Shown here: in pieces, positions 800 through 17,934 of the stretch
Position numbering within the stretch: the first letter of the stretch is position 1
Layout of the letters: each line of letters begins with the position of its first letter
Assembly (NCBI RefSeq): GCF_019801605.1
Contig: NZ_JAHVIT010000001.1
Location: 1,302,001-1,366,000 of the forward strand
Direction of reading: 5' to 3'
Source of the DNA: Maritimibacter alkaliphilus
GTDB lineage: Bacteria; Pseudomonadota; Alphaproteobacteria; Rhodobacterales; Rhodobacteraceae
Length of the DNA stretch: 64,000 bases
Notes under the pieces: generated by a model
Database searches by the model: none
What the model saw: the letters and a program-made list of their open reading frames with translations, nothing else
Told to the model about the DNA's origin: nothing
Program-made: the position numbers and the translations under genes

Positions 800-822
800 G
801 GGCAGTCTCCGGAAACTCGGGT

Positions 823-851
823 CCCCGCGCCGCAAGAAGTCTGGCGCGGGG
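823..851 (-). promoter_or_regulatory. Intercistronic stem-loop between TAXI SBP and TRAP permease
   Basis: Perfect 9-bp inverted repeat CCCCGCGCC / GGCGCGGGG with an 11-base loop, lying between the binding-protein stop and the permease start. There is no T-run, so it is more likely an mRNA-stabilising or attenuating structure than a full terminator. A GC-rich second hairpin sits at about 858-880. A comparable element occurs at 56163-56187 in the second TAXI-TRAP operon. Confidence 0.55.
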
Positions 852-1850: not shown

Positions 1851-1876
1851 CTGAACTCTCCTAGTGGGACATGCTG

Positions 1877-1901
1877 GCCGCCCGGAGCCTGTCCGGGCGG
1901 C
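1877..1901 (-). promoter_or_regulatory. Stem-loop downstream of the ABC binding-protein gene
   Basis: Perfect 9-bp GC stem GCCGCCCGG / CCGGGCGGC with a 7-base loop, just after the stop of the livK-like gene and before the TAXI binding-protein gene. No T-tract follows on the minus strand. It probably protects the 3' end of the upstream message or partly terminates it, which would raise binding protein over downstream products. Confidence 0.5.
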
Positions 1902-1909
1902 AGGCAGGG

Positions 1910-3857: not shown

Positions 3858-4641
3858 TCTCAGCCTCCTTCGCGCTCTCTCCGGCGTGGCGCGGGCCCAG
3901 ATAGGCCTCCAGCACCAGCGGGTCCTTCTGCACGTCGGCCGTGCTGCCATCGTAGATTTTCTGACCGAAGTTCAGCACCACCGCCCGGTCGCAGAGCGAC
4001 CGCACGAGGGCCATGTCATGCTCCACCACAAGGAGCGTCACGCCGCTGTCGGAAATCCGGTCGAGGAAGGCCATCAGCTCTCCGGTCTCGGTCTCGTTCA
4101 GGCCCGCGGCGGGTTCGTCCAGCAGCAGCAGACGCGGACGGGCGGCGAGCGCGCGGACCAGTTCGATCTTCTTGCGGATGCCATAGGGCAGCGTCGAGAC
4201 GTCCTGCCCCGGTGCGACCTCCACGCCCATCTCGGCCAGCAGCGCCTCGGCCTCGGCCCGGGCACGGGAGCGACCGAAGATCGAGAGCGGCGCCAGCAGA
4301 CGGCCGGGACGATCCGGGCGCGCGTGCTGCCCCATCATCACGTTCTCCACCACGGACAGGTGCGGCATCAGGCGGATGTTCTGGAACGACCGCGCCATGC
4401 CATATCCGATCCGCTTGCGGCTGGGGACGTCGTCGATCACCTCGCCGCCCAGACGGATATGGCCCGTGTCCTGCCGGTAGACGCCCGAGAGCAGGTTGAA
4501 GATCGTCGTCTTCCCTGCCCCGTTCGGGCCGATCAGCGCCAGACGCCCGCCCTGTTCGAGGTCGAAGCTGACATCATTGATCACCTTGAGACCCCCGAAG
4601 GCGATCGAGAGGTTTTCGACGGAAAGCAGCGGCTCGGCCAT
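3847..4641 (-). CDS. livG: Branched-chain-type ABC transporter ATPase (LivG-like)
   Basis: Second ATPase of the importer, 264 residues. Walker A GPNGAGKTT at 38-46, degenerate LivG-type signature LPYGIRKK at 151-158, Walker B LLLLDE at 171-176, then VEHDMALVRSLCDRAVVL. The 5' end is GTGATG; the ATG at 4641 is preferred because GGAAGGAGG lies 7 bases before it, whereas the GTG would be only 4 bases away. The ATG overlaps the stop of livM in a TGATG arrangement, so translation is coupled. Confidence 0.92.
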   Translation of the reverse strand: MAEPLLSVENLSIAFGGLKVINDVSFDLEQGGRLALIGPNGAGKTTIFNLLSGVYRQDTGHIRLGGEVIDDVPSRKRIGYGMARSFQNIRLMPHLSVVENVMMGQHARPDRPGRLLAPLSIFGRSRARAEAEALLAEMGVEVAPGQDVSTLPYGIRKKIELVRALAARPRLLLLDEPAAGLNETETGELMAFLDRISDSGVTLLVVEHDMALVRSLCDRAVVLNFGQKIYDGSTADVQKDPLVLEAYLGPRHAGESAKEAENVA

Positions 4642-5558
4642 CACAGGGCCTCCTTCCGGGTGCTGCGGAACGGGTGGCTGATGCGTTCGACCATGGTCCG
4701 GGTGATCAGCCCCTCGGAGCGGAAGACCATCATCAGCACCGTCACCACGCCAAGCGCCACGAAGCGCCAGCTTTCATCGGGGGGCGACATGGAGCCCTCG
4801 GCCCCGAAAAGCGCGTAGAGTCCGGACTTCATTGCCGGCAGCGTGTTGCGCAGCAGTTCGGGCAGCAGGGTGAAGAAGGCCGCCCCCGCCAGCGGACCCC
4901 ATGCTGTCTGCGCCCCGCCGAGGAGGACGTAGAGCAGCACGTAGATGGAGAGCGAGGCGTTGAAGGTCTGCACTTCGACGTAGGTGTAGGCATGGGCATA
5001 GAGCCCGCCCGCAAAGCCCGCGAGCGCCGCACCGAGGGCGAAGAGCGCCACGCGCACCAGCCGCACATCCACGCCCAGCAGGTCGCAGACCACGTCGTCG
5101 TCATGCACCGCGCGCACCGCCAGTCCCAGCCGGGTGGACATCAGATAGAAGCAGAAAAGCGCCACGCAGACCGCCGCGATGGCGGGCACGTTCCAGTCGA
5201 TGAACTCGGGCACCGGAAGGCCCATGGCCCCGCCGAGCGCATCGGAGTTGATGATGACCCCCGCCACGACCTCCGCGAAGGCAAAGGTGCCAAGGACGAG
5301 GTAGACGCCCTTCAGCCGCAGGATCGGGAAGGCAAAGGCAAAGCCGATGCCGCCCGCCACCACGGCGGAGGCCCCGAGGGTGGCCCAGATCGGCCAGCCC
5401 TGTTCGGCACAGAGCCAGGCCGCCGCATAGGCGCCAAGGGCCTGGAAGCCTGCGCCGCCAAGGTTAAGCTGGCCGGTGGCCACGGCGAGGTAGATGCCAT
5501 AGGCAAAGACCACGTTGATCGACAGCAGGGTGATGATCCCGCTCCAGTAGCCGCTCAT
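4641..5558 (-). CDS. livM: Branched-chain-type ABC transporter permease (LivM-like)
   Basis: Inner-membrane permease, 305 residues, with many hydrophobic helices. The stretch GGAGFQALGAYAAA near residues 33-46 and LGLAVRAVHDDDVVCDLLGVD are the conserved LivM cytoplasmic-loop signature (family RAIRDNE-GVD). Start ATG 5558 overlaps the livH stop as TGATG, as between livM and livG. The C-terminal tail FRSEGLITRTMVERI is basic, as in LivM proteins. Confidence 0.92.
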   Translation of the reverse strand: MSGYWSGIITLLSINVVFAYGIYLAVATGQLNLGGAGFQALGAYAAAWLCAEQGWPIWATLGASAVVAGGIGFAFAFPILRLKGVYLVLGTFAFAEVVAGVIINSDALGGAMGLPVPEFIDWNVPAIAAVCVALFCFYLMSTRLGLAVRAVHDDDVVCDLLGVDVRLVRVALFALGAALAGFAGGLYAHAYTYVEVQTFNASLSIYVLLYVLLGGAQTAWGPLAGAAFFTLLPELLRNTLPAMKSGLYALFGAEGSMSPPDESWRFVALGVVTVLMMVFRSEGLITRTMVERISHPFRSTRKEAL

Positions 5559-6475
5559 CACAGTTTCCCCTTGCCGATGGCGTTATGTCCGAAAAGTCCC
5601 TGCGGGCGGATCAGCAGTGTGATCAGCAGCGCGCCCCAGACGGCGGCCTGCACGGTGTCCGCGCCGAAGAAGTGAATGGTGAGCATCTCGATCAGGCCGA
5701 CGATCACGCCGCCCGCGACCGCGCCCCAGAGCGAGCCGAGCCCGCCGACGACCATGCCCGCGATCGCCTTGGAGCCGATGTCCTCGCCCATCTGGGGGCT
5801 GACCTCGCCGTAGTTCACGGCAAAGAGCGCCCCTGCCAGACCGCAGAGCATCCCGGTCAGCATGAAGACGATGGGCACGACACGGTTGGGTTCGACCCCC
5901 AGCAGCGCCGCCGCGTCGGGATTTTCCGCGATGGCGCGCAGGCCGCGCCCGGTGCGGGTGGCGTTGATCACCCAGACCAGCCCGAGGATCAGCCCGATCA
6001 CGAGGACGAAGCTGACCAGCTGTGGCACGCGGACGAAGATCCCGCCGATATTGGCGGTCAGGTCCGCGCCCGGCCCCGGAAAGCGTTGCGCGTCAGAGCC
6101 ATAGGAGATCCGCACGAGGTTCTCGAGAATCAGCAGGAACCCCAGCGAGGACACCAGCGGGATCGCGTGTTCGGTCGAATCGCCGTGCTTCATCTTCATG
6201 TAGCGGAAGGTGAACCGCTCCACGATGAGCGAGCAGGCCACCGCCACGGCTATGCCCGCGGCAAGCGCCAGCGGCCAGGGCAGCGGACCACCAAGGCCGA
6301 AGGGCAGCCCGAAGAAGGCCAGCCCCCAGCCCACCATGCCCGCGACCATGAAGAGCGTCGGGATCGTGAAATTCAGGAAGTTCAGGATGCTGATGGTCAG
6401 GGTGAAGGCCACGGCCACGGTCACGTAGACCGAGCCGAGCATCAGGCCGTTCACGATCTGCTGGATCAGAAGCAT
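5558..6475 (-). CDS. livH: Branched-chain-type ABC transporter permease (LivH-like)
   Basis: First gene of the leftward transporter operon: an inner-membrane permease of 305 residues. It begins MLLIQQIVNGLMLGSVYVTV, the standard LivH N-terminus, and has the loop TGRGLRAIAENPDAAALLGV (family RAVAQD..A..LGI). The ATG at 6475 has only a weak ribosome-binding site (no clear AGGAG), but family alignment supports it; an 80-residue upstream extension in the same frame has no membrane-protein character. The end RPQGLFGHNAIGKGKL is typical. Confidence 0.9.
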   Translation of the reverse strand: MLLIQQIVNGLMLGSVYVTVAVAFTLTISILNFLNFTIPTLFMVAGMVGWGLAFFGLPFGLGGPLPWPLALAAGIAVAVACSLIVERFTFRYMKMKHGDSTEHAIPLVSSLGFLLILENLVRISYGSDAQRFPGPGADLTANIGGIFVRVPQLVSFVLVIGLILGLVWVINATRTGRGLRAIAENPDAAALLGVEPNRVVPIVFMLTGMLCGLAGALFAVNYGEVSPQMGEDIGSKAIAGMVVGGLGSLWGAVAGGVIVGLIEMLTIHFFGADTVQAAVWGALLITLLIRPQGLFGHNAIGKGKL

Positions 6476-6871
6476 CCGCGATGCCCCGCCGAGGGAAGAG
6501 AAACGGTATACATTCGGAGGGGCCCTTTCATCTTTGACTGGACAAATCCGAACAACAAAACCCGGCACCGGTCCAGCCAAACTGCGCGCCCGGGTGTTCA
6601 CCAGGTGAAAAAGAACACCGTCGATGCACAATAATTCACCGCACAAGCGCCGAAATTGGTCCTCATGCCGCGAATTCCCCTCATTTTGCGCAAATCGAGC
6701 CCGCGCGACACCCACAGCCCCCTGCTGCGCCGGAGCGCCAAAAAACAGGCACCTCCGTCTCTCCGATGGACAAGCGGGCTATTCCGAATTGATTTGTCCT
6801 TACATTATGTGCACAAACTTCGGCATCACTTCACCCTCACGACCCGTTGCCGCGCAAGGACTCGACTCACG
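6476..6871. promoter_or_regulatory. Divergent control region between liv/TRAP operon and monooxygenase operon
   Basis: 396 bases without a gene, AT-richer than its surroundings. It holds an exact palindrome TTCACC-A-GGTGAA (6597-6609) nested in GTGTTC...GAACAC (6594-6618), a palindrome TGTGCACA (6808-6815), and GGACAAATC (6540-6548) whose exact inverse GATTTGTCC lies at 6791-6799, with a further GGACAA at 6768-6773. These are candidate GntR-type operators for coordinated control of uptake and catabolism. Promoter boxes were not assigned. Confidence 0.5.
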
Positions 6872-8095
6872 ATGACACAGACCGAAAAGACCGTTCCCCA
6901 AAGGGTTATCGTGGTGGGCGCCGGCCCCGTGGGCCTCGTCGCGGCCGCGTCGCTGGCCCGCGAAGGCATCCCGGTGACGATTCTCGAAAAGAGCCGCGAC
7001 CTGCCAAAAGACCTGCGCGCCTCCACTTTCCATTCGCCCACGATGGACATGCTGGAGCCCTTCGGCGTGATGCCCGGGCTGATCGAGAAGGGCCTCGTCT
7101 GCCAGCACTGGCAGTTCCGCGACCGCGAGGAAGGCGTCATCGCCACCTATGACCTCGGCCTGCTGGAAGGCGCCACGAACTATCCCTTCCGGCTTCAGTG
7201 CGAACAGTGGAAGCTGACGGAAGCCCTGCGGGACATCCTCGAAGCCTCTGAGTCCACGGAACTTCTCTACAACCTCCGCGCCACCGGCGTGACGCAGGAC
7301 GACGACGGCGTGACGCTGACGGTGCAGCACGACGACGGCACGGTCGAAGAGATGAAGGCCGCCTATGTCATCGCCTGCGACGGGGCGCATTCGGCGCTGC
7401 GCAAGGCGCTCGACGTGCCCTTCGAGGGCATGACCATCCCCGAGATCTTCCTCTCCATGTCGACCACCTTCGACTTCGGCGCGGCGATCCCCGACCTGAC
7501 CCCGATCGCCTACCTGACCGACCCGCAGGAATGGGCGGTGCTGCTGCGCACACCCTCGCTCTGGCGGGTGCTGCTGCCGACCGATCCCGGCATGACCGAG
7601 GAGCAGATCAAGGACCCGGCCCTCATGGAGAAACGGCTTCAGGCGCTCTGCCCCAAGGAAGGTCCCTATGACGTGGTCCACGCCACGGCCTACCGGGTGC
7701 ACCAGCGGGTCGCGAAGAGCTATGTCGCGGGCCGTGTCTTCCTTGCCGGCGACAGCGCGCACCTGAACAACCCCCTTGGCGGCATGGGCATGAACGGCGG
7801 CGTCCACGATGCGGTGAACCTTGTGGAGAAGCTGGGCAAGATCTGGCGCGGCGAGGCCGGGCTGGAGCTGATGCAGCTCTATGACGCGCAGCGCCGCAAG
7901 GCCTGTATCGACACGGTGCAGAGCCAGTCGATCCGCAACCGCCGCATGATGGCCGAGACCGACCCCGAGGCCCGCAAGGCCTATCACGCGGAGCTGCGCG
8001 AGGTGGTCGCCGACCCCGAGAAACACCGCGCCTTCGTGATGCGCTCCTCCATGATCCAGTCGCTGCGCGACGTGGAGGCGCTGGAGGAGGCCTGA
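6872..8095 (+). CDS. FAD-dependent aromatic-type monooxygenase (FAD_binding_3 family)
   Basis: Probably hydroxylates an aromatic or heteroaromatic acid with NAD(P)H and O2, the likely entry reaction of this island. 407 residues: dinucleotide fold GAGPVG at 16-21, the NAD(P)H/FAD motif with DG at 170-171 (CDGAHSALR), and the second FAD motif GRVFLAGDSAHLNNPLGG around 288-304 with GD at 293-294. These three motifs define class A flavoprotein hydroxylases. It lacks the C-terminal thioredoxin-like domain of phenol hydroxylases, so it is of the compact kind (compare 6-hydroxynicotinate or 4-hydroxybenzoate monooxygenase sizes). ATG 6872 was chosen because the fold starts 10 residues later. First gene of the rightward operon; substrate unassigned. 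Confidence 0.87.
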   Translation: MTQTEKTVPQRVIVVGAGPVGLVAAASLAREGIPVTILEKSRDLPKDLRASTFHSPTMDMLEPFGVMPGLIEKGLVCQHWQFRDREEGVIATYDLGLLEGATNYPFRLQCEQWKLTEALRDILEASESTELLYNLRATGVTQDDDGVTLTVQHDDGTVEEMKAAYVIACDGAHSALRKALDVPFEGMTIPEIFLSMSTTFDFGAAIPDLTPIAYLTDPQEWAVLLRTPSLWRVLLPTDPGMTEEQIKDPALMEKRLQALCPKEGPYDVVHATAYRVHQRVAKSYVAGRVFLAGDSAHLNNPLGGMGMNGGVHDAVNLVEKLGKIWRGEAGLELMQLYDAQRRKACIDTVQSQSIRNRRMMAETDPEARKAYHAELREVVADPEKHRAFVMRSSMIQSLRDVEALEEA

Positions 8096-8187
8096 GGCAA
8101 GATGACCTGAGGGCCCAGAGATACGCCCGGCCAACGGGCACCGAGATCGGGCCGCGCGCCCGTGCAAGATCCAACAGAGGAAAGACA

Positions 8188-8934
8188 ATGACCGACAGCC
8201 TTGGCTACCGCATGAAATTCGGCGTCATCGCGCCCTCCACCAACACCTCGGTGCAGCCGGAATTCGACGACATGCGCCCCGTGGGGGTGACCAACCACTT
8301 CTCGCGCATCATCATCCCCGATGAGCCCGTGCACAGCGACGAGGATTTCAACAACCTCGTCATGGGTATCCGCGCGGCCACCATGGACGCCATCGACGCG
8401 GTCAAGACCTGCTCGCCCGGCGCGATGATCATGGGCATGTCGGCCGAGACCTTCTGGGACGGCAAGGAACGCGCCGACAAGCTGCAGGCAGAGATCATGG
8501 AACGCGCGGGCATGCCCGTGGCCATGGGCTCGGACGCCTGCATGAACGCACTGAAATGCTTCGGCGACATCAAGAAGATCGCCGTCATCACCCCCTATAT
8601 GCCCATCGGCGACGCGCAGGTGGAACGCTACTTCACCGACTGCGGCTTCGAGGTGGTGCAGGTGAAGGGGCTGAAGTGCCAGTCGCCCATGCTGATCGCC
8701 TATGAAACCGAGAAGACCCTGCGCGACGCGCTGATCGAGGTGAATGACCCCTCGGTCGAGGCGATCATCCAGGCCGGCACCAACCTTGCCATGGCGCGCG
8801 TTGGCGGCATCGCGGAGTTCTGGATGGACAAGCCCGTGATCGCGATCAACACCGCGACCTACTGGCACGCGCTGCGCATGAACGGGATCCAGGACAAGGT
8901 GCAGGGCTTCGGCTCGCTCCTGTCGCACTACTGA
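8188..8934 (+). CDS. Maleate-isomerase/arylmalonate-decarboxylase-fold protein lacking both catalytic cysteines
   Basis: 248 residues of the Asp/Glu racemase superfamily, closest in layout to maleate cis-trans isomerases: FGVIAPSTNT at 11-20 matches their PSSNT substrate loop. The first catalytic cysteine position (family ...CTSGS...) reads GMSAETFWDG (Ser85 region), and the second (family SCTN...) reads QAGTNLAMARV with Gly197. Cys-based isomerisation therefore looks impossible as in NicE. The fold, length and the conserved MSAETFW/GTNLA motifs look intact rather than decayed. It is the second gene of the operon, 92 bases after the monooxygenase. The real reaction is unknown; a lyase, decarboxylase or hydrolase using the same oxyanion pocket is possible. 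Confidence 0.8.
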   Translation: MTDSLGYRMKFGVIAPSTNTSVQPEFDDMRPVGVTNHFSRIIIPDEPVHSDEDFNNLVMGIRAATMDAIDAVKTCSPGAMIMGMSAETFWDGKERADKLQAEIMERAGMPVAMGSDACMNALKCFGDIKKIAVITPYMPIGDAQVERYFTDCGFEVVQVKGLKCQSPMLIAYETEKTLRDALIEVNDPSVEAIIQAGTNLAMARVGGIAEFWMDKPVIAINTATYWHALRMNGIQDKVQGFGSLLSHY

Positions 8935-9102
8935 CCTGACTGGTTGCGTTCACTGGCCGGGCGCACCCCTTCCCGCCCGGCCCCTTTTCTGCCCAAGCCC
9001 TCTTTGCCCTGCCCCTCTCTCCCCCGGCCCTCTCTGCCCCGGCCCTCTCTGACACGGACCCGCGATTGCGCGGCCCTCTCCCGGCCCTCAAGGACATCCC
9101 CG
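8935..9102. repeat. CT-rich spacer with short tandem repeats
   Basis: 168-base spacer inside the operon, dominated by near-copies of CCGGCCCTCTCTGCC (about 9015-9062) and related CCCTCT blocks. An open frame runs through it in phase with the downstream gene and would give a proline/serine repeat; I read this as low-complexity spacer, not protein, because family homology begins at 9103. Confidence 0.5.
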
Positions 9103-10014
9103 ATGCACTACGATTTCGTCCCGCTCCCCGACCGCAAGCCGCTCAAATGGCCCAATGGCAAGAAGCTGGCGGTCATCCTGACCACCAACCTCGAATACTG
9201 GGACCAGGAGCGTGACGACCCGGCACCCTATTACCCGGGCGGCCCCGGCATCGTGGGCGGCACCCTGCCCGGCGATGTCTATGACAACCCGAACTGGACC
9301 TGGCGCGAATACGGCCAGCGGGTCGGCGTCTGGCGGATGTTTGATCTCTTCAAGGCCGAAGGCGTCCCGACCTCTTGCACCATGAACGCCAAGATGGGGA
9401 TCGAGCGCCGCAAGGTCGTGGAGGCCGCCCTTGCCAACGGCTACGAGGTGATCCCGCACAACTACGTGCAATCCGACCTGCTGACCGACTTCGCCAAGGA
9501 CAAGGAGAAGGAGCGCGCCGTCATCCGCGAGACCCTCAAGGTCTACGAAGAGGTCTGCGGCCAGAAGGCCAGGGGCTGGCTCTCCTCCTCGCTGCGCTCG
9601 ACGCTGAACACGGCCGACATCCTTGCCGAGGAAGGACTGCTCTTCTTCACCGACCTTCTGAACGACGATCAGCCCTACATGGTCCAGACCGAGTGCGGCA
9701 AACCGCTGGTGTCGATTTCCTATACCTCCGAGGTGAACGATTTCACCGTCTTCATGCGGCAGGGCATGGACGTTGAGGGCGCGGCCCGCGTCTTCATCGA
9801 ACAGTTCAACTGGCTGCGCGAGGAGGCCGAGGCCACCGGGTCGGGCCGGTTCATGAACATCGGCCTGCACCCCCATGTCATCGGCCAGCCGTTCCGCATC
9901 CGGGCGATCCGCGAATTCATCCGCCACGCCAAGCAATTCGACGACATCTGGTTCGCAACGCGCGAAGAGCTTGCATCCTGGTACGCCGACAACCACGCTT
10001 CGCACATCGGCTGA
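9103..10014 (+). CDS. Polysaccharide-deacetylase-fold protein, PuuE-like clade
   Basis: 303 residues of the NodB/CE4 fold. The metal-binding residues of true deacetylases are absent: the usual T-[FY]-D-D position reads LTTNLEYWDQ and the HxxxH motif is replaced by EVIPHNYVQSDLL. This is typical of the PuuE-like branch, whose members hydrolyse C-N bonds in small molecules such as allantoin without a bound metal. A role in cleaving an amide, formamide or lactam intermediate is therefore more likely than a cell-wall role. No signal peptide, so cytoplasmic. ATG 9103 (MHYDFVPLPDRK) is chosen over an upstream in-frame ATG at 8944 that only adds repeat-encoded proline/serine sequence. Confidence 0.8.
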   Translation: MHYDFVPLPDRKPLKWPNGKKLAVILTTNLEYWDQERDDPAPYYPGGPGIVGGTLPGDVYDNPNWTWREYGQRVGVWRMFDLFKAEGVPTSCTMNAKMGIERRKVVEAALANGYEVIPHNYVQSDLLTDFAKDKEKERAVIRETLKVYEEVCGQKARGWLSSSLRSTLNTADILAEEGLLFFTDLLNDDQPYMVQTECGKPLVSISYTSEVNDFTVFMRQGMDVEGAARVFIEQFNWLREEAEATGSGRFMNIGLHPHVIGQPFRIRAIREFIRHAKQFDDIWFATREELASWYADNHASHIG

Positions 10015-10032
10015 AGAGCAACGGAGCCCGCA

Positions 10033-10788
10033 ATGCCCGATCAAGGCCCCCAGATTCCCGGCTTCTCCCATGACGGGGCGCCCGACGACCTGTCCGACAT
10101 GAAGCCCGCGGACCGCGCCTACCACGTGATCCGCGAGGCGATCCTGTCGGGGGAGCTGGCTCCGGGCTCCCATCTGGCGGAGAGCCAGCTGGCCGCCATG
10201 TGCAATTCCTCGCGCACCCCCGTGCGCGAGGCCCTGCAACGGTTGACCGCTGAGGGGCTGGCGCTCTCCGAGGGGCGCAGCCGGTTCGTGGCGAATTTCA
10301 CCTACCACGAGGTTTCCATCGTCTTCGACCTGCGCGCCCGGATCGAGGCCTACGTGGCCCAGATCGCCGCCCGGCTGATCACCCCACGCGAACTGGACAT
10401 GATGGAGCAGCTGGTGGAAGAGATGGACCGCCTCGACCGGGGCGAGTTCGAGGCCTTCCACAACCTAAACGGCGAGTTTCACGACGCTATCCTGCGAGCC
10501 GCGCGGTCGGAACAGCTCCGCTCGGTCACGCGACAGGTCTTTGCCCTGCCCCTGACCGTGATCAAGCAGTCCTTCTGCAACCAGCCCATCGACATCGTCC
10601 GCTCCAACGCGCAGCACAAGGATATCCTCGGCGCGCTGCGGGCGCGGGACGAGGGCTGGGCCTCCTCCGCGATGCTCGTGCACCTGCTCTCCACCAAGCC
10701 CGCACCGCCCGACGAGGCCGGCGCCCCCGGCCTCGGCACCCTGCTGCCGCCGGGGCTCAGCACCTTCGTCCCTCCGAGAACTTCATGA
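10033..10788 (+). CDS. GntR-family transcriptional regulator (FadR/FCD type)
   Basis: 251 residues. The N-terminal winged helix-turn-helix is clear (about residues 25-90: AYHVIREAILSGELAPGSHL, then SRTPVREALQRLTAEGL), followed by an all-helical FCD effector domain with the conserved FHNLNGEFHDAIL (family D..FH) and a later H (NAQHKDILGAL). The last 30 residues are a proline-rich tail. It is embedded in the catabolic operon, so it probably senses a pathway intermediate and acts on the 6476-6871 region. Ligand unknown. Confidence 0.88.
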   Translation: MPDQGPQIPGFSHDGAPDDLSDMKPADRAYHVIREAILSGELAPGSHLAESQLAAMCNSSRTPVREALQRLTAEGLALSEGRSRFVANFTYHEVSIVFDLRARIEAYVAQIAARLITPRELDMMEQLVEEMDRLDRGEFEAFHNLNGEFHDAILRAARSEQLRSVTRQVFALPLTVIKQSFCNQPIDIVRSNAQHKDILGALRARDEGWASSAMLVHLLSTKPAPPDEAGAPGLGTLLPPGLSTFVPPRTS

Positions 10789-10798
10789 CCGGAACCCC

Positions 10799-11635
10799 AT
10801 GACCCAGACCTCTGCCGCGCCCCTCGCCGGGCGCAGGATCCTCGTCACCGGCGCCTCCCGCGGGCTTGGCCGGGAAATGGCCCTCGCCCTTGCGGAGGCC
10901 GGGGCCGACCTCGCCCTCATGGGCGCCCGTCCCGGCGCCGCGCTCGATGCCACGGTGGCCGAGGCGGAAGCGCTTGGCGCGACCGTCCTGCCACTGACCT
11001 GCGACGTGGCCGATCCCGCCGCCTGCGCCGCCGCGATGCAGGCCGTGATCACCCGGTTCGGCGGCCTCGACGTGCTGGTGAACAACGCGGGCCTCGGGAT
11101 GCGCGCGATATCCGAGCGCTTCAACACCGTCCCCACCCGGTTCTGGGAGGCCGATCCCGCCGCCTGGGCCGCGATCGTGGCCACGAACGTGAACGGCCCC
11201 TTCTACCTCGCCCGGCTGGCGGCGCAGCAGATGGTCGCGCAGGGCGCGGGCAAGATCGTGAACATCTCGACCTCCGATCAGACAATGGTGCGGCGCGGCT
11301 ATTCTCCCTACGGGCCTTCCAAGGCCGCTCTCGAAGCCGCCTCGCGGGTCTGGGCGCAGGACCTCGCGGGCACCGGCGTCACGGTCAACGTCTACCTCCC
11401 CGGCGGGGCGGCGGACACCGACCTGCTGCCGCCCTCCGCCAACAAGCGCGGGGCCGATGGCAACCTGCTGCCGGCGGGGATCATGCGCCGGGCGATCCTC
11501 TGGCTCTGCGGGCCGGCGTCCGACGGGCAGACCGGCGGGCGCTACATCGCGCGGCTCTGGGACGACAGCCTGCCCGAGGCGGCAGCCGCAGAAGGCGCCC
11601 GCTGCCGGTCCGTCGAGAAGCCGGAGATCATGTGA
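10799..11635 (+). CDS. Short-chain dehydrogenase/reductase (SDR)
   Basis: NAD(P)-dependent oxidoreductase of 278 residues. Cofactor motif TGASRGLG near residue 18, NNAG near 94, catalytic Ser in NISTSDQT and YGPSK as the Tyr/Lys pair. It lies 10 bases after the GntR gene and overlaps the following hydrolase gene by one base (TGATG), so it is translationally coupled. It would interconvert a hydroxyl and keto group of a pathway intermediate. The C-terminus has an extra charged segment after the usual SDR core; substrate not predictable. Confidence 0.87.
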   Translation: MTQTSAAPLAGRRILVTGASRGLGREMALALAEAGADLALMGARPGAALDATVAEAEALGATVLPLTCDVADPAACAAAMQAVITRFGGLDVLVNNAGLGMRAISERFNTVPTRFWEADPAAWAAIVATNVNGPFYLARLAAQQMVAQGAGKIVNISTSDQTMVRRGYSPYGPSKAALEAASRVWAQDLAGTGVTVNVYLPGGAADTDLLPPSANKRGADGNLLPAGIMRRAILWLCGPASDGQTGGRYIARLWDDSLPEAAAAEGARCRSVEKPEIM

Positions 11636-12543
11636 TGCTGCACCTCGGCCCCGGCGTGACCCTCGAGCGGGCGCTGGATCTCTCGCCTTTCACCCTGCCC
11701 TTCGACCTGCTCTTCCCGGGACGCGACATCGCGGATCTGGACGGCGCGCGGGACTGGCTGGCGCCGCTCCACGTGGATTTCGCCGCGCAGACGATCCTGC
11801 TCGACGTGCAGAGCCATGTCCTGCGGATCGGCGACAAGGTGATCCTGATCGACACCTGCGTCGGCGAACATAAGCACCGCCCGCGCCGGGCCGACTGGCA
11901 CAACCGGGCCGCCACGGGCTACCTAGACCGGCTGGCGGCCCTCGGGCTGCGGGCCGAGGATGTGGACGTGGTCTTCTGCACCCATCTCCACACCGATCAC
12001 GTCGGCTGGAACACGCGGCTGGAGAATGGCCGCTGGGTACCGACCTTTCCCCGGGCGCGCTACCTCGTGGGCGAGGCGGAGCTGGCGCATTGGCTGGCGG
12101 AAGAGGCCCGCGCCCCCGGCGAGGCCAATCACGGCTGCTTTGCCGACAGCGTGCAGCCGGTGCTGGACGCCGGCCTGATGGAGACCGTGGCCGATGGCGC
12201 GGATCTCTGCTGCGGGATGGCGCTGGAGGCGACCACGCTGACCGTGACCCCCACGCCCGGACACACGCCCGGACACCGGGCGCTGACCCTGCGCCGCCGC
12301 GACGTGACCGCGCTGCTGTGCGGCGACGCGATCCATACGCCGGCGCAGCTTTACCGGCCCGACTGGTATTCCCGCTTCTGCTCTGACGGGCCGCTGGCCG
12401 TGGCGACCCGGCGCGCGCTTCTGCAAGAGGCCACTGAACACGGCCATATCCTCGTCCCCGGTCACCTGCGCGGCGCCATGGGGATGCGGGTGCATCCGCT
12501 GGAGGCCCCACACGGAGACGTATGGAAACCGGAATGGCTGTGA
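11635..12543 (+). CDS. Metallo-beta-lactamase-fold hydrolase
   Basis: 302 residues, no signal peptide. The zinc motif HLHTDH sits at 117-122 (CTHLHTDHVGW), followed by TPGHTPGH and CGDAIHT, which supply the remaining metal ligands, and a terminal VPGHL. The layout resembles lactonase/esterase members of the family (AHL-lactonase-like) rather than beta-lactamases. The start ATG at 11635 overlaps the SDR stop, with GGAG 8 bases upstream; a GTG one codon earlier is less likely. In this operon it could open a lactone or thioester intermediate. Last gene of the first rightward operon, convergent with the next GntR gene. Confidence 0.87.
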   Translation: MLHLGPGVTLERALDLSPFTLPFDLLFPGRDIADLDGARDWLAPLHVDFAAQTILLDVQSHVLRIGDKVILIDTCVGEHKHRPRRADWHNRAATGYLDRLAALGLRAEDVDVVFCTHLHTDHVGWNTRLENGRWVPTFPRARYLVGEAELAHWLAEEARAPGEANHGCFADSVQPVLDAGLMETVADGADLCCGMALEATTLTVTPTPGHTPGHRALTLRRRDVTALLCGDAIHTPAQLYRPDWYSRFCSDGPLAVATRRALLQEATEHGHILVPGHLRGAMGMRVHPLEAPHGDVWKPEWL

Positions 12544-12602
12544 CCGGGAGCGCCCGCAACGCGTGCGGACCGGCGGGAGCGCCCCTCAGGCCGCCGCGGC
12601 GC

Positions 12603-13373
12603 TCAGCCCTGGCCCCGGTTGCGCTTGATGTGCATCTTGTAGCTCAGCTGCTCCGCCGGGTGCCAGTTGCACGAGGCAATCACCACGCCTTCCGACGAAT
12701 GGTAGCGCCGCAGCAATTGCAGCGCGATCGCCCCCGGCGCCAGCCCGAGGTAGCGCTGCGCCTTCTCCGGCATCGGGGCGGCGCTGATCTCCTGCTCGCA
12801 TTCGTCGATCGGCACGGCCGAGTGGCTTTCCAGAAGCGAGAAGAACGCGCCCTGGTGACCCTGGAACTCCGGCACGTATTTCGCGAAACGGGCGGGCACA
12901 TAGCTCTCGATGAAGGCCAACGGACGGCCGCCCGGTTCGGTCCAGCGAACACCTTCGACGCGGGTCCAGGTCTCGCCCGCCTTGCCGCCCACGACCTCGG
13001 CCAGGGCTTTGTCCAGAACAACCTCCTCCGTGTGCATGACCACGTAGTAGGTCTCCACCGCCACCTGGAACAGCTCCTGAAGGCTGTCGAAGGTCTGGCT
13101 GTAGCGCATCTGCGGCTCGGTCGAGATCACCCGCGTGCCAAGCCCCTGCCGCCGCTCGACGAAGCCGGTCTCGGTCAGGTGGCGCAGCGCCTCGCGCACG
13201 GTGAAGCGCGAGGTGTCGAACTCTGCGGCCAGCTCGATCTCCGTCGGCATGAGAGATCCGACCGGATAGGTCCCGTCCCGCAGGCGGCTCTCGAGGATCT
13301 TCTGGATCCGGGCGTAGCGCGGGCCCGTGCCTTCGTCCGGCGTCTGCGTCGTGGTGTCGTCCTGTGCACTCAT
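12603..13373 (-). CDS. GntR-family regulator with UTRA domain (HutC type)
   Basis: 256 residues. N-terminal winged helix (about 18-85: YARIQKILESRLRDGTYPVG, SRFTVREALRHLTETGFVER) plus a C-terminal UTRA/chorismate-lyase-like ligand domain (VRWTEPGGRPLAFIESYVP, then LQLLRRYHSSEGVVIA). It is read away from the 13581 operon, with 207 bases between them, the usual arrangement for a local repressor of the divergent operon. HutC-type regulators commonly sense small carboxylated or amino-acid-like ligands. Confidence 0.9.
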   Translation of the reverse strand: MSAQDDTTTQTPDEGTGPRYARIQKILESRLRDGTYPVGSLMPTEIELAAEFDTSRFTVREALRHLTETGFVERRQGLGTRVISTEPQMRYSQTFDSLQELFQVAVETYYVVMHTEEVVLDKALAEVVGGKAGETWTRVEGVRWTEPGGRPLAFIESYVPARFAKYVPEFQGHQGAFFSLLESHSAVPIDECEQEISAAPMPEKAQRYLGLAPGAIALQLLRRYHSSEGVVIASCNWHPAEQLSYKMHIKRNRGQG

Positions 13374-13580
13374 CTGCGGCCTCTCTCCTCCTCCGGATCA
13401 GCCCCCGTCCTGCGCGGGGTTCCGGAAGCATCTGTTCTTTTCTCGCCACTTGTCCAGCCAAATGCGTGAAAACCGGACATTGCGCCCGGCTATCGCGGTA
13501 AATGTATGGACATTAATGGCAGATCATGTGACGTAATAGCGAACAAACACGGGTTCCGGCAAACGGAATCGGAGCAAGAC
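13374..13580. promoter_or_regulatory. Divergent promoter/operator region of the HutC-type regulator and isomerase-lyase operon
   Basis: 207-base gap between divergent genes. It contains the exact inverted repeat AATGT-atgg-ACATT (13501-13514) and a TTGTCC...GGACAT pair (13450-13480, half-sites 19 bases apart). GGACATT recurs at 13508-13514, so the GGACA/TGTCC element is repeated here and also occurs in the 6476-6871 region. GGAGCAAGAC before ATG 13581 is a good ribosome-binding site. Confidence 0.5.
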
Positions 13581-14387
13581 ATGACCCAGACTTCCAACCC
13601 GCCCCCGAACCAGACCAGCTGCCCGACCCTTCGACCGGACCGCCGCCAGCTCAGCTATGGCCAGCGGGGACGCCTCGGCCTGATCTGCCCGCCCACCAAC
13701 ACGGTGAACGAGGCGGAGTGGGCGCAGCTCGTGCCGGAGGGGGTCACCTTCCACAGCCACCGGATGAAGCTCCACCCCGACACCAAGAGCGACGCGGGCC
13801 TCGCAGGGCTGCACGCGGACCTCGACGCCGCCATCGCCATGCTGAAGGTCGCGGATGTGGACGTGGTGGCCTATGCCTGCACCGCGGGCTCCATGATCTC
13901 GCCCGCGCGCGCCCTGCCCGAGGCGCTGACCGCCCGCAACGGGATCGCCACTGTCACCACCGCCGCCGCCATCGTCGGCGCGCTGCAGGCGCTTGGGTTG
14001 ACGAAGATCAGCGTGGCTACGCCCTATCACGATGCGCTCAACGATCACGAGGTGCATTTCCTCGCCGATCACGGGATCGAGGTCCTCTCCATCGCGGGCC
14101 TCGGGCTCGGGGCCAAGGGCCCGGCGGAGTTCCCGCTCATCGCCCAGACCCCGCTCGACATGGTCGCGGCCCATGCCCGCACCACCTTCGCGGAGGGGTC
14201 GCAGGCGCTGCTCCTCTCCTGCACCGATTTTCCGACCCTGCCCCTGATCCCGACCCTCGAGGCCGAACTGGGGGTGCCGGTCATCTCGTCCAACACCGCC
14301 ACGCTGCACGGGGCGCTTGCCGCCGCGGGGCTGGAGGACCTCGCCATTCCCGGCGCGGGGCGTTTGCTGGGCGTCACCAACGTCTGA
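13581..14387 (+). CDS. Asp/Glu racemase-superfamily enzyme, maleate isomerase-like (canonical cysteines)
   Basis: 268 residues. It has the substrate loop CPPTNT (36-41) and both catalytic cysteines in the expected places: Cys100 in AYACTAGSM and Cys214 in LSCTDFPTL. That pattern fits cis-trans isomerisation of maleate-like dicarboxylates (NicE type) or an arylmalonate-decarboxylase-like reaction. It heads the second rightward operon and is followed 12 bases later by a lyase and then an amidase, which suggests amide to maleate-like acid to trans acid to lyase. An N-terminal proline/asparagine-rich stretch of about 25 residues precedes the fold. Confidence 0.83.
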   Translation: MTQTSNPPPNQTSCPTLRPDRRQLSYGQRGRLGLICPPTNTVNEAEWAQLVPEGVTFHSHRMKLHPDTKSDAGLAGLHADLDAAIAMLKVADVDVVAYACTAGSMISPARALPEALTARNGIATVTTAAAIVGALQALGLTKISVATPYHDALNDHEVHFLADHGIEVLSIAGLGLGAKGPAEFPLIAQTPLDMVAAHARTTFAEGSQALLLSCTDFPTLPLIPTLEAELGVPVISSNTATLHGALAAAGLEDLAIPGAGRLLGVTNV

Positions 14388-14399
14388 GGAGGAGACACC

Positions 14400-15290
14400 A
14401 TGGCAGACCCCACCCTGCGCAAGAAACTGGAGGCAGGCGAGTTCATCCTCGCCCCCGGCATCTATGACCTAATCTCGGCGCTCTTTGCCGACCGGGGCGA
14501 TTTTCCCGCGCTCTATGTCACCGGCTACGGCACGGTGGCCTCGCACCTCGGCCTGCCCGATGCGGGGCTGGCGACCTACAGCGAGATGCTGGGCCGCATC
14601 GCGCAGATGGTGAAACGGACAACGAAACCCGTGATTGCCGATGCGGACACCGGCTATGGCGGGCTGCTGAACGTGCGCCACACAGTGCAGGGCTACGAAG
14701 ACGCGGGCGTCACCGCGATCCAGATCGAGGACCAGGAATTCCCCAAGAAATGCGGCCATACCCTTGGCCGCCGGGTGATCGCCGCCGAGGACATGGCCCG
14801 CAAGATCGCCGTCGCCGTGGACAGCCGCCGGTCCGAGGATTTCCTGATCATCGCCCGCACCGATGCCCGCACCACGCTCGGCCTCGACGAGGCGATCCGG
14901 CGCGGCAGGCTCTATGCCGAGGCGGGCGCGGATGTCATCTTTGTCGAAAGCCCCGAGAGCGTGGAGGAGATGACCCGCATCGCCGGCGAGATCGACCGCC
15001 CGCTGGTCGCGAACATGGTACAGGGCGGGCGCACGCCGATGCTGAGCGCCGAGGAGCTTGCCACCATCGGCTACCGTATGGCGATCCATCCGGCGGCGGG
15101 GTTCCTCGCCACCGGTGCCGCGCTGCAGGCGGCCTATGGCGACCTCGCCGCCCATGGCGCCATGACGGACGCGGTTCCGCTGCACCCGTTTTCCGATTTC
15201 AACTCCCTCGTCGGCTTCGAGGACATCTGGGCGTTCGAGAAACGCTTCCCCGAGGTCGGCCCCAACACGCAGGACAGGACACAGGAATGA
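14400..15290 (+). CDS. Isocitrate lyase/PEP mutase-superfamily lyase (methylisocitrate/dimethylmalate lyase-like)
   Basis: 296 residues. DADTGYG at 81-87 holds the Mg-binding aspartates and KKCGH at 116-120 carries the lyase cysteine (Cys118), as in 2-methylisocitrate, oxaloacetate-type and 2,3-dimethylmalate lyases; PEP mutases lack this cysteine. It would cleave a 2-hydroxy-dicarboxylate into pyruvate or glyoxylate plus a short acid. GAGGAGG precedes ATG 14400, and its end overlaps the amidase gene by ATGA. No 2-methylcitrate-cycle genes are nearby, so propionate metabolism is unlikely and a role in this pathway is favoured. Confidence 0.87.
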   Translation: MADPTLRKKLEAGEFILAPGIYDLISALFADRGDFPALYVTGYGTVASHLGLPDAGLATYSEMLGRIAQMVKRTTKPVIADADTGYGGLLNVRHTVQGYEDAGVTAIQIEDQEFPKKCGHTLGRRVIAAEDMARKIAVAVDSRRSEDFLIIARTDARTTLGLDEAIRRGRLYAEAGADVIFVESPESVEEMTRIAGEIDRPLVANMVQGGRTPMLSAEELATIGYRMAIHPAAGFLATGAALQAAYGDLAAHGAMTDAVPLHPFSDFNSLVGFEDIWAFEKRFPEVGPNTQDRTQE

Positions 15291-15922
15291 GCGAAGATCT
15301 CGGCGAAAACTACGCCCGCGCCTATGGCAAGAAGGCCGGCTACGGGCAGCGCCCGGCGCTGGTGATGGTGGACTTCGCGCAGGCCTACTACGACCCCGAC
15401 TGCCCGCTCTACGGGGCTGAGGGCTGCATCGATGCGCTCGCCTCGGCGCTGCGCATCCGAGAGGCCGCGCACAAGGCCGGCATCCCGGTGATCCTGACCG
15501 AGGTGAGCTACGCCGATGATCGCGGCCTGACCGGCGGGCGTTTCTGGGAAAAGGCCAAGCCGCTCGCGGCCTTCGTGAAGGGCCGCAGCACCGCCGCCTT
15601 CGCAGACGGTCTCGTACCACGCGAGGACGAGGTCATCGTGACCAAGCAATACCCCTCCGCCTTCTTCGGCACCTCGCTGGCGCCGATGCTGACGGCCATG
15701 GGCGTGGACAACGTGATCCTCACCGGGCTGACGACCTCCGGTTGCGTGCGCGCCTCCTGCGTCGACAGCATGAGCCACGGCTTCATCACCACCGTCGTTG
15801 GCGAGGCCTGCGGCGACCGCCATCCCGGCCCCCATGAGGCCAACCTCTTCGACATGAACGCGAAATACGCCGACGTGGTGAGCGAGGCGGAGATCCTCGA
15901 CCACCTCGCCACCTTCGCCTGA
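15287..15922 (+). CDS. Isochorismatase-fold amidohydrolase (maleamate amidase / N-carbamoylsarcosine amidase-like)
   Basis: Cytoplasmic cysteine amidase of 211 residues. Catalytic triad Asp29 (VMVDFAQAYY), Lys120 (VTKQYPSAFFGT) and Cys153 (TTSGCVRASCVD) is complete. The FGT after the lysine and the SGCVRAS motif are the form seen in maleamate amidohydrolase (NicF) and N-carbamoylsarcosine amidase rather than in nicotinamidase. It starts inside the stop of the lyase gene (ATGA). A step producing maleate or a substituted maleate and ammonia would supply the neighbouring isomerase; this is inference from the context. Confidence 0.87.
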   Translation: MSEDLGENYARAYGKKAGYGQRPALVMVDFAQAYYDPDCPLYGAEGCIDALASALRIREAAHKAGIPVILTEVSYADDRGLTGGRFWEKAKPLAAFVKGRSTAAFADGLVPREDEVIVTKQYPSAFFGTSLAPMLTAMGVDNVILTGLTTSGCVRASCVDSMSHGFITTVVGEACGDRHPGPHEANLFDMNAKYADVVSEAEILDHLATFA

Positions 15923-15947
15923 TCCCCTCCCCGAAAGGACCTCTCCC

Positions 15948-16703
15948 ATGACGACCCTCTCGCCCGCGGCCCCCGGTGGCCGCACCATCGCCGTGCTCGG
16001 CGGCGCCGGTGGCATCGGCCGCGCCCTTGTCGCCTCGCTCGAAGCCCTCGGCGACACGGTCATCGTCCTCGACCTGCCGCGCGCGCTGGAGCATCACGCA
16101 CTGGACGGGATCGGGCTGGACGCGGGCGACGAGGCCGCGGTGGAGACAGCAGCCTCCGCGCTCAAGGAAAAGGCGCCCGGAGGCCTCGACGGCTTCGTGA
16201 ACCTCGCGGGCTGGAACAGCGAGATCCGTCCGGTGAGCGAGACCCCCGCCACCTATTTCGACGATGTGGTGCAGGGCAACCTGCGCTCCACCTTCCTCAC
16301 GACCAAGGCAATCGCGCCCATGATGAAGGACGGCGGCGGCATCGTCCTGTGCTCCTCCGGGCTGGGTCAGTTCATCCGGCCGGGGTTCGGTGCCTATGCG
16401 GCCTCCAAGGCCGGTGTCATCGCGCTGACCAAGACCTTTGCGCTGGAACTCGCCCCGCGTCTGCGTGTAAACGCCGTGGGGCCGGCCGTTGTCGACACCG
16501 CTTTCCTGCGCGGTGGCACCGGGCGCTCGGACGAGAGCGCCGAGAACATCCTCGACCTCGATCGGTACAAGGCAATGACGCCGCTGGGACGCGTGGCACA
16601 GCCCGACGACGTGGCCGGGCCGATCCGCTTCCTGCTGGGCCCGGACGCCGGCTTCATGACCGGGCAGATCCTCTGGGTCAACGGTGGCGGCTACATGCCC
16701 TGA
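15948..16703 (+). CDS. Short-chain dehydrogenase/reductase (SDR)
   Basis: 251 residues. Cofactor motif GGAGGIG, NLAG in place of NNAG, catalytic Ser in CSSGLGQ and YAASK. The classical C-terminal ending MTGQILWVNGGGYMP shows the complete fold. It lies 25 bases after the amidase with GAAAGGAC before the ATG, and is followed by a strong terminator. It would oxidise or reduce a hydroxy/keto intermediate; the substrate is not evident. Confidence 0.87.
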   Translation: MTTLSPAAPGGRTIAVLGGAGGIGRALVASLEALGDTVIVLDLPRALEHHALDGIGLDAGDEAAVETAASALKEKAPGGLDGFVNLAGWNSEIRPVSETPATYFDDVVQGNLRSTFLTTKAIAPMMKDGGGIVLCSSGLGQFIRPGFGAYAASKAGVIALTKTFALELAPRLRVNAVGPAVVDTAFLRGGTGRSDESAENILDLDRYKAMTPLGRVAQPDDVAGPIRFLLGPDAGFMTGQILWVNGGGYMP

Positions 16704-16754
16704 TCCCCCCGGCTCCGCGCGGCCGATCCGCGCGGGACCGCCCTCTTTCCAAGG

Positions 16755-16784
16755 CCGGGCCCCGGGGCCCGGTTTCGTCTCTTT
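16755..16784 (+). terminator. Rho-independent terminator-like hairpin after the SDR gene
   Basis: An 18-base perfect palindrome (16755-16772, CCGGGCC arms around CCGG) followed by TTTCGTCTCTTT. It ends only 14 bases before the GTG start of the membrane protein gene, so that gene is either read through or translated from leakage. Confidence 0.7.
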
Positions 16785-16797
16785 CCGCGAGGCCTTC

Positions 16798-17934
16798 GTG
16801 ACCATCACTTCCGAGACCGCATCCCCCACCGTCCCCGCGCAATGGCTGCGCGGCCCGTTGCGACTGGGGGTGATGTGGCTGCTGCTGCTCGCACTCTCGG
16901 CGCTGCTGGCCTGGGGGCTGGAACTGGTGCACCTGCCTGCCGCCCTGCTGCTGGGGCCGATGGCCGCGGCCATCACGCTGGCCGCCAGCGGGCTGACCTC
17001 GGCCAACCACGTGCTGCCACGCTCCATGGGGCTGCCGCGGGGGGTCTTCACCTTCGCGCAATCGGTGGTCGGCACGATGATCGCCACGACGATCCCGGTC
17101 GAGACCCTGGGAAGCGTAATGCTGGACCTGCCGGTCTTTCTCTTCGGGGTGATCTCGGTCATCGCGGCCTCGGCCTGGCTGGGCTACGTGCTCACCAAGC
17201 GACAGGTCCTGCCGGGCGCAACGGCGGTCTGGGGCTCCACCCCCGGGGCGGCACAGGCGATGGTCTTCCTTGCCGAGGCGAATGGTGCTGACATGCGACT
17301 CGTCGCGGTCATGCAGTACCTGCGCGTCGGCATGGTGGCCGCGGGCGCCTCGCTGATCGCGCGGTTCTGGGTCGGCGCTCCGGACGTGCCCCCGCCGCCG
17401 ATCGACTGGTTCCCCGCGCCGGACCTCGCCTTGCTCCAGGCCTGCGGGCTGATGGCCGCCGGCATGGTGATCGGGCGCGTCTTCAGGATTCCCGCGGGCG
17501 AATTCCTCAGCCCGCTCCTGATCGGCACGGCGCTGCAGGCGCTCGGGCTGATCTCGCCCGAGGTGCCGCATTGGCTGCTGGCGCTCGCCTTCGCGGTGAT
17601 CGGCTGGACCATCGGGCTGCGCTTCACCAAGGCGATCCTGCTGCACGCCTGGAAGGCGCTGCCGCGGCTCGTCTTCTCGATCCTGCTGTTGATGACGCTC
17701 TGCGCGGGCTTCGCGGTGGTGATCTCGTTCACGATGGACGTGGACCTGCTGACTGCCTACCTCGCCACCAGCCCGGGCGGCGCGGATTCCGTGGCGGTGA
17801 TCGCCGCGTCGAGCGACGTGGACATCGCCTTCGTCATGGCGATGCAGACGCTGCGGTTCGTCCTCGTGCTGATCTCGGGCCCGATGATCGCGAAGTTCGT
17901 GGCGAAGAAGGTGGGTGCGCTGGCGCAGGGGTGA
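16798..17934 (+). CDS. AbrB-family (duplicated-domain) membrane transporter
   Basis: 378-residue inner-membrane protein with about ten hydrophobic helices arranged as two similar halves, each carrying a proline/glycine-rich motif (PRGVFTFAQSVVGTMI and IPAGEFLSPLLIGTAL) and loops rich in GS(T)PGGA (GSTPGAAQAM, TSPGGADSVAV). This is the AbrB/COG3180 pattern. The start is a GTG at 16798 (VTITSETASP) with only CGAGG upstream. It is the last gene of the catabolic island and could export or import an organic acid; the biochemical role of the family is poorly known. Confidence 0.82.
   Translation: MTITSETASPTVPAQWLRGPLRLGVMWLLLLALSALLAWGLELVHLPAALLLGPMAAAITLAASGLTSANHVLPRSMGLPRGVFTFAQSVVGTMIATTIPVETLGSVMLDLPVFLFGVISVIAASAWLGYVLTKRQVLPGATAVWGSTPGAAQAMVFLAEANGADMRLVAVMQYLRVGMVAAGASLIARFWVGAPDVPPPPIDWFPAPDLALLQACGLMAAGMVIGRVFRIPAGEFLSPLLIGTALQALGLISPEVPHWLLALAFAVIGWTIGLRFTKAILLHAWKALPRLVFSILLLMTLCAGFAVVISFTMDVDLLTAYLATSPGGADSVAVIAASSDVDIAFVMAMQTLRFVLVLISGPMIAKFVAKKVGALAQG

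Follow-up and report, generated by a model that had tools for sequence, protein, structure and literature searches.

What do some 19 adjacent genes of Maritimibacter alkaliphilus do, and do they belong together? They lie towards the left end of a 64,000-nucleotide stretch of contig NZ_JAHVIT010000001.1 (the window, to whose full length all coordinates refer) and, judged by their gene content, form one unit that runs from a TAXI-TRAP importer beginning left of the window to about 17934. The content and order of the genes, their enzyme families and their catalytic residues can be read from the DNA, and by gene order the unit is a conserved catabolic one, not a set of chance neighbours. We think it possible, though a little short of probable, that this conserved, probably transferable unit degrades a nitrogen-containing ring compound, through import, ring hydroxylation and opening, de-amidation, isomerisation and a carbon-carbon cut. 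Known families appear here in an apparently undescribed combination, together with an enzyme subfamily, Amd1, that has no assigned reaction.

Nine enzymes were followed: a group A flavin monooxygenase (FMO), Amd1, a PuuE-type C-N hydrolase, the oxidoreductase SDR1, an MBL-fold hydrolase, Amd2, a PEPM-family lyase, an amidase and a second oxidoreductase, SDR2. The original prediction, made from the letters of this DNA, had described two co-directional operons with two GntR regulators between 6872 and 17934. Both operons and their genes are there, and every enzyme that it named was recovered from the open reading frames (ORFs) and family scans, including a lyase with the cysteine of the isocitrate lyase type. 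The second regulator, GntR-UTRA, lies on the minus strand between the operons, and the unit is larger than had been thought, as it includes minus-strand importers leftward. The first plus-strand operon (6872-12543) carries FMO, Amd1, the PuuE-type hydrolase, GntR-FCD, SDR1 and the MBL hydrolase, and the second (13581-17934) carries Amd2, the PEPM lyase, the amidase, SDR2 and an AbrB-family protein. To their left the HAAT-type ABC (1910-~6490) and TAXI-TRAP importers diverge on the minus strand; on the right the cluster is followed on the chromosome by proA-, proB- and obg-type genes.

Relatives were located by tblastn of the window proteins. Of 244 genomes sampled from the order, five, the M. 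alkaliphilus genome counted, carry an orthologue of the PEPM lyase at E <= 1e-80. Two of the other four, G042 and G203, hold nearly the full set in the same order, importers too, with an FMO of about 70% identity, and G124 holds a rearranged set. A scan of GTDB representatives with an Amd1 alignment gave at least 578 confirmed relatives, from which 80 loci, found with the patterns G[MI]SAETFW or AINTA[TI][YF]W, were kept. At 40% identity or above, all nine enzymes stand together in 9 of the 80, at least eight in 15, at least seven in 17 and at least four in 33. The complete loci belong to Albimonas donghaensis, three Pseudooceanicola, Kandeliimicrobium, Aquibium, two Rhizobium (one of them, Rhizobium sp. 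RU36D, with a rearranged order) and Agrobacterium rosae. Martelella, which the NCBI taxonomy places in Hyphomicrobiales, Microvirga and Neorhizobium are each one enzyme short, and all nine are also present on a plasmid of Allorhizobium pseudoryzae. One locus, L030, is apparently the same record as G203, and the two are not independent cases.

It is this near-identical gene order in Rhodobacterales and Hyphomicrobiales that leads us to regard the unit as conserved, and the neighbourhood check that the original prediction had named as its own test did not go against it: the homologues are not singly scattered but sit in conserved clusters. The same evidence bears on the idea that the two operons are unrelated and adjacent by chance. 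A regulator does stand between them on the minus strand, some relatives hold a partial set, and a convincing shared operator was not found in the two intergenic regions, where perfect palindromes and cross-region 16-mers were about as frequent as in shuffled sequence (five shuffles each). Both halves nevertheless occur together and in order across two bacterial orders, and a metagenome-assembled genome (MAG; L084) joins six enzymes from both halves in one compact, one-strand operon, PuuE-amidase-Amd1-FMO-PEPM-Amd2; we regard chance adjacency as highly improbable. Because of this compact operon we take these six enzymes as the putative core, which makes the SDRs, the MBL hydrolase, the AbrB protein and an aldehyde dehydrogenase look peripheral. 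Several relatives have the dehydrogenase between the genes for GntR-FCD and SDR1; the window cluster does not. AbrB is the least certain member by its distribution: it is present in 4 of the 80 loci, many of which stop short of its place, and in Thioclava, and has no match above 90 bits in G042 or G203.

Co-occurrence was counted in the 54 loci that span 15 kb or more, where shared ancestry makes p-values descriptive only. FMO and Amd2 are found together in 25, with nine cases of FMO alone and none of Amd2 alone; for the PEPM lyase the counts are 19, 15 and none, for SDR1 23, 11 and one, and for the PuuE-type hydrolase 23, 11 and two. Across all 80 loci the lyase lacks an accompanying FMO in two, L046 (3.3 kb) and L073 (12.6 kb).

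The distribution of the unit suggests that it is probably horizontally transferable. An FMO tree of 43 rows intermixes Rhodobacterales and Hyphomicrobiales, needing five changes for the former and six for the latter, with starred branches forcing at least four each; such mixing is by itself no proof of transfer. In G207, the sole genome of the same genus among those listed from the order, the genes directly next to proA are homologous to ones found 10.7-14 kb to the left of the window; about 29 kb including the cluster is therefore missing at that place. This could be a loss in G207 rather than a gain in the window genome. At the level of the class, FMO orthologues (E <= 1e-120) occur in at least 11 of 385 genomes, the M. 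alkaliphilus genome counted, a lower bound given that four candidates were scored per genome.

What chemistry would such a unit carry out? Amd2 keeps both cysteines of the maleate isomerases, C99 and C213, in 28 of 28 rows. The amidase, predicted to be NicF-like, does carry the residues of maleamate amidases: its triad, D29, K120 and C153, is kept in 25 of 25 rows, as are P, H and A of a PHEA motif whose E is kept in 22. PHEA is common to 3ot4 and 4l07, which we take to be the maleamate amidases NicF and Ami, and two N-carbamoylsarcosine hydrolases carry other letters there; we infer that the Asp-Lys-Cys triad and PHEA mark maleamate specificity. The PEPM lyase has KKCGH, with C118 in 24 of 24 rows. 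Its best match in a PDB sequence search is the petal death protein (201.6 bits), a 2-alkylmalate lyase, and it falls below the cut-off of the methylisocitrate lyase family PrpB (255.6 bits against 354.4). PEPM lyases of the petal-death type cut a 2-hydroxy-dicarboxylic acid.

Within the first operon, the nearest solved relatives of FMO are PnpA and HspB, among the best 60 of 124 PDB matches. The PuuE-type protein scores 133.7 bits against the curated PuuE allantoinase family, whose cut-off is 424.6. Its structure model (pLDDT 88.5) is nearer to the PuuE allantoinase group (TM 0.82-0.83) than to HpPgdA (0.72-0.75), as is its sequence (1z7a, 119.5 bits, against 28 bits for HpPgdA). HpPgdA matters here because the fungal cyclic imidase HxnM has been compared with its structure, according to the available part of PMC9304392, and in our comparison it stood in for HxnM. 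The simplest role of the PuuE-type protein would be to open a cyclic amide. As its fold takes in this imidase, which acts in fungal nicotinate breakdown (PMC9304392, in the part available), the route could just as well run through a cyclic imide or a lactam. The ORF is longest from a TTG at 8944, and ATG 9103 is the likelier start; the segment between them (8944-9102) opens the longest form in a short repeat resembling CGGCCCTCTCTGCCC.

These likenesses bring nicotinate to mind. The aerobic nicotinate pathway is NicC-NicX-NicD-NicF-NicE and, like the cluster, uses a group A flavin hydroxylase with maleamate-amidase- and maleate-isomerase-type enzymes. A variant of it could have FMO make a 2,5-dihydroxypyridine-like ring, which an unrecognised enzyme, perhaps FMO itself, would open; the PuuE-type protein would replace NicD, and the amidase and Amd2 would take the NicF and NicE steps. 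The nearness of FMO to PnpA and to HspB, the 6-hydroxy-3-succinoylpyridine monooxygenase, is consistent with this, as are the NicF- and NicE-like residues of the amidase and Amd2 and the fold that N-deacetylases share with PuuE. However, no match of a cluster gene in the family scans names a ring-cleaving dioxygenase, and the PEPM lyase would be superfluous for unsubstituted maleate; we consider such a variant doubtful. As the original prediction held, NicX and NicD equivalents are missing: neither name, nor an alpha/beta-hydrolase, appears among the family matches of the cluster genes, the rest of the genome not having been searched. Unlike the nicotinate pathway, the cluster adds the PuuE-type hydrolase, a cysteine-less arylmalonate decarboxylase (AMDase)-fold protein, the MBL hydrolase, the SDRs and the PEPM lyase.

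That cysteine-less protein is Amd1, the most conserved of the nine enzymes in G042 and G203 (89-92% identity, against 55-76% for the other eight). The two isomerase-fold proteins had been treated alike; this stands for Amd2 and fails for Amd1. The Amd1 model (pLDDT 91.3) has the AMDase fold, with maleate isomerase 2xec as its best match (TM 0.83-0.87) and the AMDase-family 3dg9 at 0.81-0.86. In a profile-profile comparison the two cysteines of Amd2 align to M84 and G197 of Amd1, and the published AMDase motif points to G83, one off from M84. Neither aligned catalytic position is a cysteine in any of 90 rows (one is gapped at G197), and the maleate-isomerase pair is thus absent; the neighbouring position 196 is a cysteine in 10 of the 90. 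As the selection patterns cover the stretches around G83/M84, invariance there is partly built in; G197 lies outside them. Arylmalonate decarboxylases share with Amd1 the fold and neighbourhoods with TRAP, TTT or ABC importers, but in our own alignment to the motifs given in the available part of PMC4996985, Amd1 has G197 in place of C188 and P16-S17 in place of P14-P15. With the cysteines, C188 and P15 all missing, Amd1 is, by the residues tested, neither a maleate isomerase nor an AMDase. The same part of that paper notes that essential features are missing from many proteins with an AMDase annotation, for which arylmalonates are unlikely substrates. The Amd1 branch is large (at least 578 relatives, with all 90 rows checked cysteine-free at these positions), and knowledge of its reaction would help to put right the database entries that now bear the name arylmalonate decarboxylase.

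Where in a pathway might Amd1 act? Elsewhere its neighbours include a hydantoinase-A protein with its highest score to caprolactamase alpha (L100; 573.5 bits, cut-off 1000), an annotated RutA (L024) and a glutamate-cyclase-domain protein (L025), and amidase relatives of at least 40% identity lie near it in 33 of the 80 loci. Because several of these neighbours act on cyclic amides, we infer a step near ring opening. The hydantoinase-A/caprolactamase-like protein and RutA would also suit a cyclic ureide route (hydantoin-, allantoin- or pyrimidine-like), in which the PuuE-type protein would open the ureide, the amidase would remove the carbamoyl group and the AMDase-fold proteins would be racemases. 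The nearest fold of the PuuE-type protein and the top sequence match of the amidase, an N-carbamoylsarcosine hydrolase, agree with it, but the PHEA motif is unlike that of carbamoylsarcosine hydrolases, the racemase cysteines are missing in Amd1 and the PEPM lyase would have no role, and we think this route unlikely. Distinctly unlikely, in our view, is a route for substituted cyclic imides, for example alkylmaleimides from haem, chlorophyll or bilin breakdown, with Amd1 catalysing a new reaction (hydration or ring hydrolysis) and the petal-death-type lyase acting last.

In the ring-degrading scheme that we favour, the TAXI-TRAP and HAAT systems would import a carboxylated N-heterocycle or its cyclic imide or lactam. 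Trimming of side chains, or oxidation of a hydroxylactam, would fall to SDR1, the MBL hydrolase and, in clusters that have it, the aldehyde dehydrogenase; the flavin enzyme would hydroxylate the ring and the PuuE-type hydrolase would open the cyclic amide, with Amd1 taking a step close to this opening by chemistry not known for its fold. The amidase would then free ammonia to leave a substituted maleate, which Amd2 would convert to the trans acid. After a hydration, cleavage of the resulting substituted malate by the PEPM lyase would yield a 2-oxo acid together with a short carboxylic acid. For the maleate and the 2-oxo acid the original prediction had tentatively proposed a methylated maleate and pyruvate. 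The two GntR proteins would control the operons. The gene set is bounded as well as probably transferable, and its substrate should be findable by growth screens and deletion in several species; it may show how a nitrogen-ring compound is recycled by bacteria of the sea and of soil.

Several points weigh against this scheme. The substrate, the order of the steps and the hydration are deduced from enzyme families, and its weakest point is that the lyase needs a hydratase for which the cluster has no candidate gene. A PrpD protein was considered for this step and set aside, as the best match in the window's genome has just 26% identity; elsewhere, clustering puts PrpD-family proteins next to Amd1 in 8 loci out of 86. 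All 80 loci were picked through Amd1, cover at most 10 kb on each side and include close relatives that are not independent. FMO and the amidase are unassociated in the 54 loci (17 with both, 17 with FMO alone, 8 with the amidase alone; p 0.58), as are PuuE and the amidase (p 0.58), and 10 of 42 FMO loci have neither PuuE nor amidase within the stretch covered. Within 40 kb, G124 has no match above 90 bits to Amd2 or the amidase, and G081 has, among the nine enzymes, the PEPM lyase only. A 33-kb stretch of Thioclava lacks a match to PuuE, PEPM and SDR2, and L041 and L042 lack PuuE, PEPM, MBL and SDR2. The steps are not obligatory together.

Other Amd1 neighbourhoods hint at a different ending. 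In Tistrella (L023), Amd1 stands with a GntR regulator and an amidase, with no match to FMO, PuuE, Amd2 or PEPM. Two further proteins of this locus might together offer another means of cleaving an acid of the malate type: a class III CoA-transferase, whose highest score (297.9 bits, cut-off 700) is to mesaconate CoA-transferase, and a protein of the HMG-CoA-lyase type at 335.7 bits, above its cut-off of 246. A class III CoA-transferase lies near a thiamine pyrophosphate (TPP) enzyme in L041, and clustering places CoA-transferases in L042 and L052. These neighbourhoods fit an end product that needs a split between two carbons; the CoA-transferases of L023 and L052 are far under the cut-offs of the named models.

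Does a described pathway have this set? Vitamin B6 degradation uses a flavin ring oxygenase, SDR dehydrogenases and an MBL lactonase, and so resembles the cluster in these classes, but 4-pyridoxolactonase is a weak match to the MBL protein (2e-4) and the B6 oxygenase is absent from the best 60 of 124 PDB matches of FMO. The dimethylmaleate/2,3-dimethylmalate branch of nicotinate fermentation has a PEPM-family lyase that cuts an alkylmalate; the cluster shares this lyase and is without the other enzymes of that anaerobic route. Among the matches listed for the nine enzymes (the best 25 of 100, 224 and 209 for FMO and the two SDRs), no NCBIfam model reaches its cut-off, and the original prediction's other test, against characterised pathways, thus left it intact. 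The fungal hxn pathway of Aspergillus nidulans, as given in the available part of PMC9304392, is alike at the level of enzyme class (a flavin hydroxylase, an SDR-like dehydrogenase, the PuuE/HpPgdA-related cyclic imidase HxnM and an amidase); the cluster differs in lacking an alkene reductase and in adding an isomerase and a C-C lyase. Riboflavin catabolism, in the part of PMC12746152 available, uses a different set of enzymes (P450, xanthine oxidase, Rieske and catechol dioxygenases). The prediction had known of no pathway with this set, and we recognised none in text searches of the open-licence literature, though a paper elsewhere is possible; searches of that literature by name gave no link of the cluster to homarine/trigonelline, tetrapyrrole maleimides, isonicotinate or pyrrole-2-carboxylate.

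Table 1. Genes of the unit, from left to right in the window.
Feature	Position	Strand	Basis
TAXI-TRAP fused permease, C-terminal part	1..835	-	DctM 3e-82 (L113:14832-16835); ORF start ~1.17 kb left of window
TAXI-family TRAP solute-binding protein	891..1919	-	NMT1_3 1.3e-15; Thioclava homologue annotated TAXI family
HAAT-type ABC solute-binding protein	1910..3085	-	Peripla_BP_6 6e-53; 72-74% identity in G042, G203
LivF-type ATPase	3150..3950	-	LivF model 1.4e-72 (under cut-off); ABC_tran
LivG-type ATPase	3847..4644	-	ABC_tran; synteny
LivM-type permease	4641..5561	-	BPD_transp_2
LivH-type permease	5558..6490	-	BPD_transp_2; ORF reaches 6715, conserved from ~residue 76
Group A flavin monooxygenase (FMO)	6872..8095	+	FAD_binding_3 5e-63; nearest solved PnpA, HspB
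Amd1, maleate-isomerase/AMDase fold without catalytic cysteines	8188..8934	+	Family scan, alignment, structure model
PuuE-type (polysaccharide-deacetylase fold) C-N hydrolase	9103..10014	+	Family scan, structure model
GntR-FCD regulator	10033..10788	+	Family scan
SDR1 oxidoreductase	10799..11635	+	Family scan
MBL-fold hydrolase, lactonase-like	11632..12543	+	Family scan
GntR-UTRA regulator	12603..13373	-	GntR 1e-17, UTRA 7e-16
Amd2, maleate-isomerase type, both cysteines	13581..14387	+	Family scan, residues; 13581 likely start
PEPM/ICL-family lyase, petal-death-protein type, PKKCGH motif	14400..15290	+	Family scan, residues
Isochorismatase-fold amidase, maleamate-amidase type	15287..15922	+	Family scan, residues
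SDR2 oxidoreductase	15948..16703	+	Family scan
AbrB-family membrane protein	~16798..17934	+	ORF from 16684; GTG at 16798 likelier start

Of the importers, the TRAP permease is matched in 22 of 86 related loci. The ABC solute-binding protein was tried as a clue to the substrate and set aside, its matches being spread over amino-acid/amide, Leu/Ile/Val, AmiC and urea binders. The segment absent from G207 also has a sugar-type ABC importer, an SDR, a zinc alcohol dehydrogenase and a PaoABC-like molybdenum aldehyde oxidoreductase (L113:5351-14721), about 1.3-10.6 kb left of the window and probably a separate operon. The last of these had been considered as a molybdenum hydroxylase acting upstream, and was not counted because the scans identify it as PaoABC-like and the sugar-type ABC operon adjoins it. 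In G042 two PEPM paralogues of equal score lie 8.9 kb apart (G042:C2:59152-68910), which suggests a tandem duplication near the cluster.

Relatives of Amd1 also occur in other settings. On plasmids of Leisingera and Bradyrhizobium one directly precedes an amino acid adenylation protein of the nonribosomal peptide synthetase (NRPS) type (L026:12001-16821, L027:12001-16779), a setting that does not point to ring opening. In seven MAG loci from Defluviicoccus, Rhodospirillaceae and other alphaproteobacteria (L082, L085, L087, L089, L092, L095, L097) an amidase is nearby, and the opposite-strand genes after Amd1 cluster with CoxE-, MobA- and molybdenum-hydroxylase-type representatives. Five further loci (L066, L067, L068, L090, L093) combine Amd1 with a distant PuuE, MmgE/PrpD proteins and a class III CoA-transferase, joined in four of the five by an acyl-CoA dehydrogenase; this neighbourhood is perhaps a second pathway.

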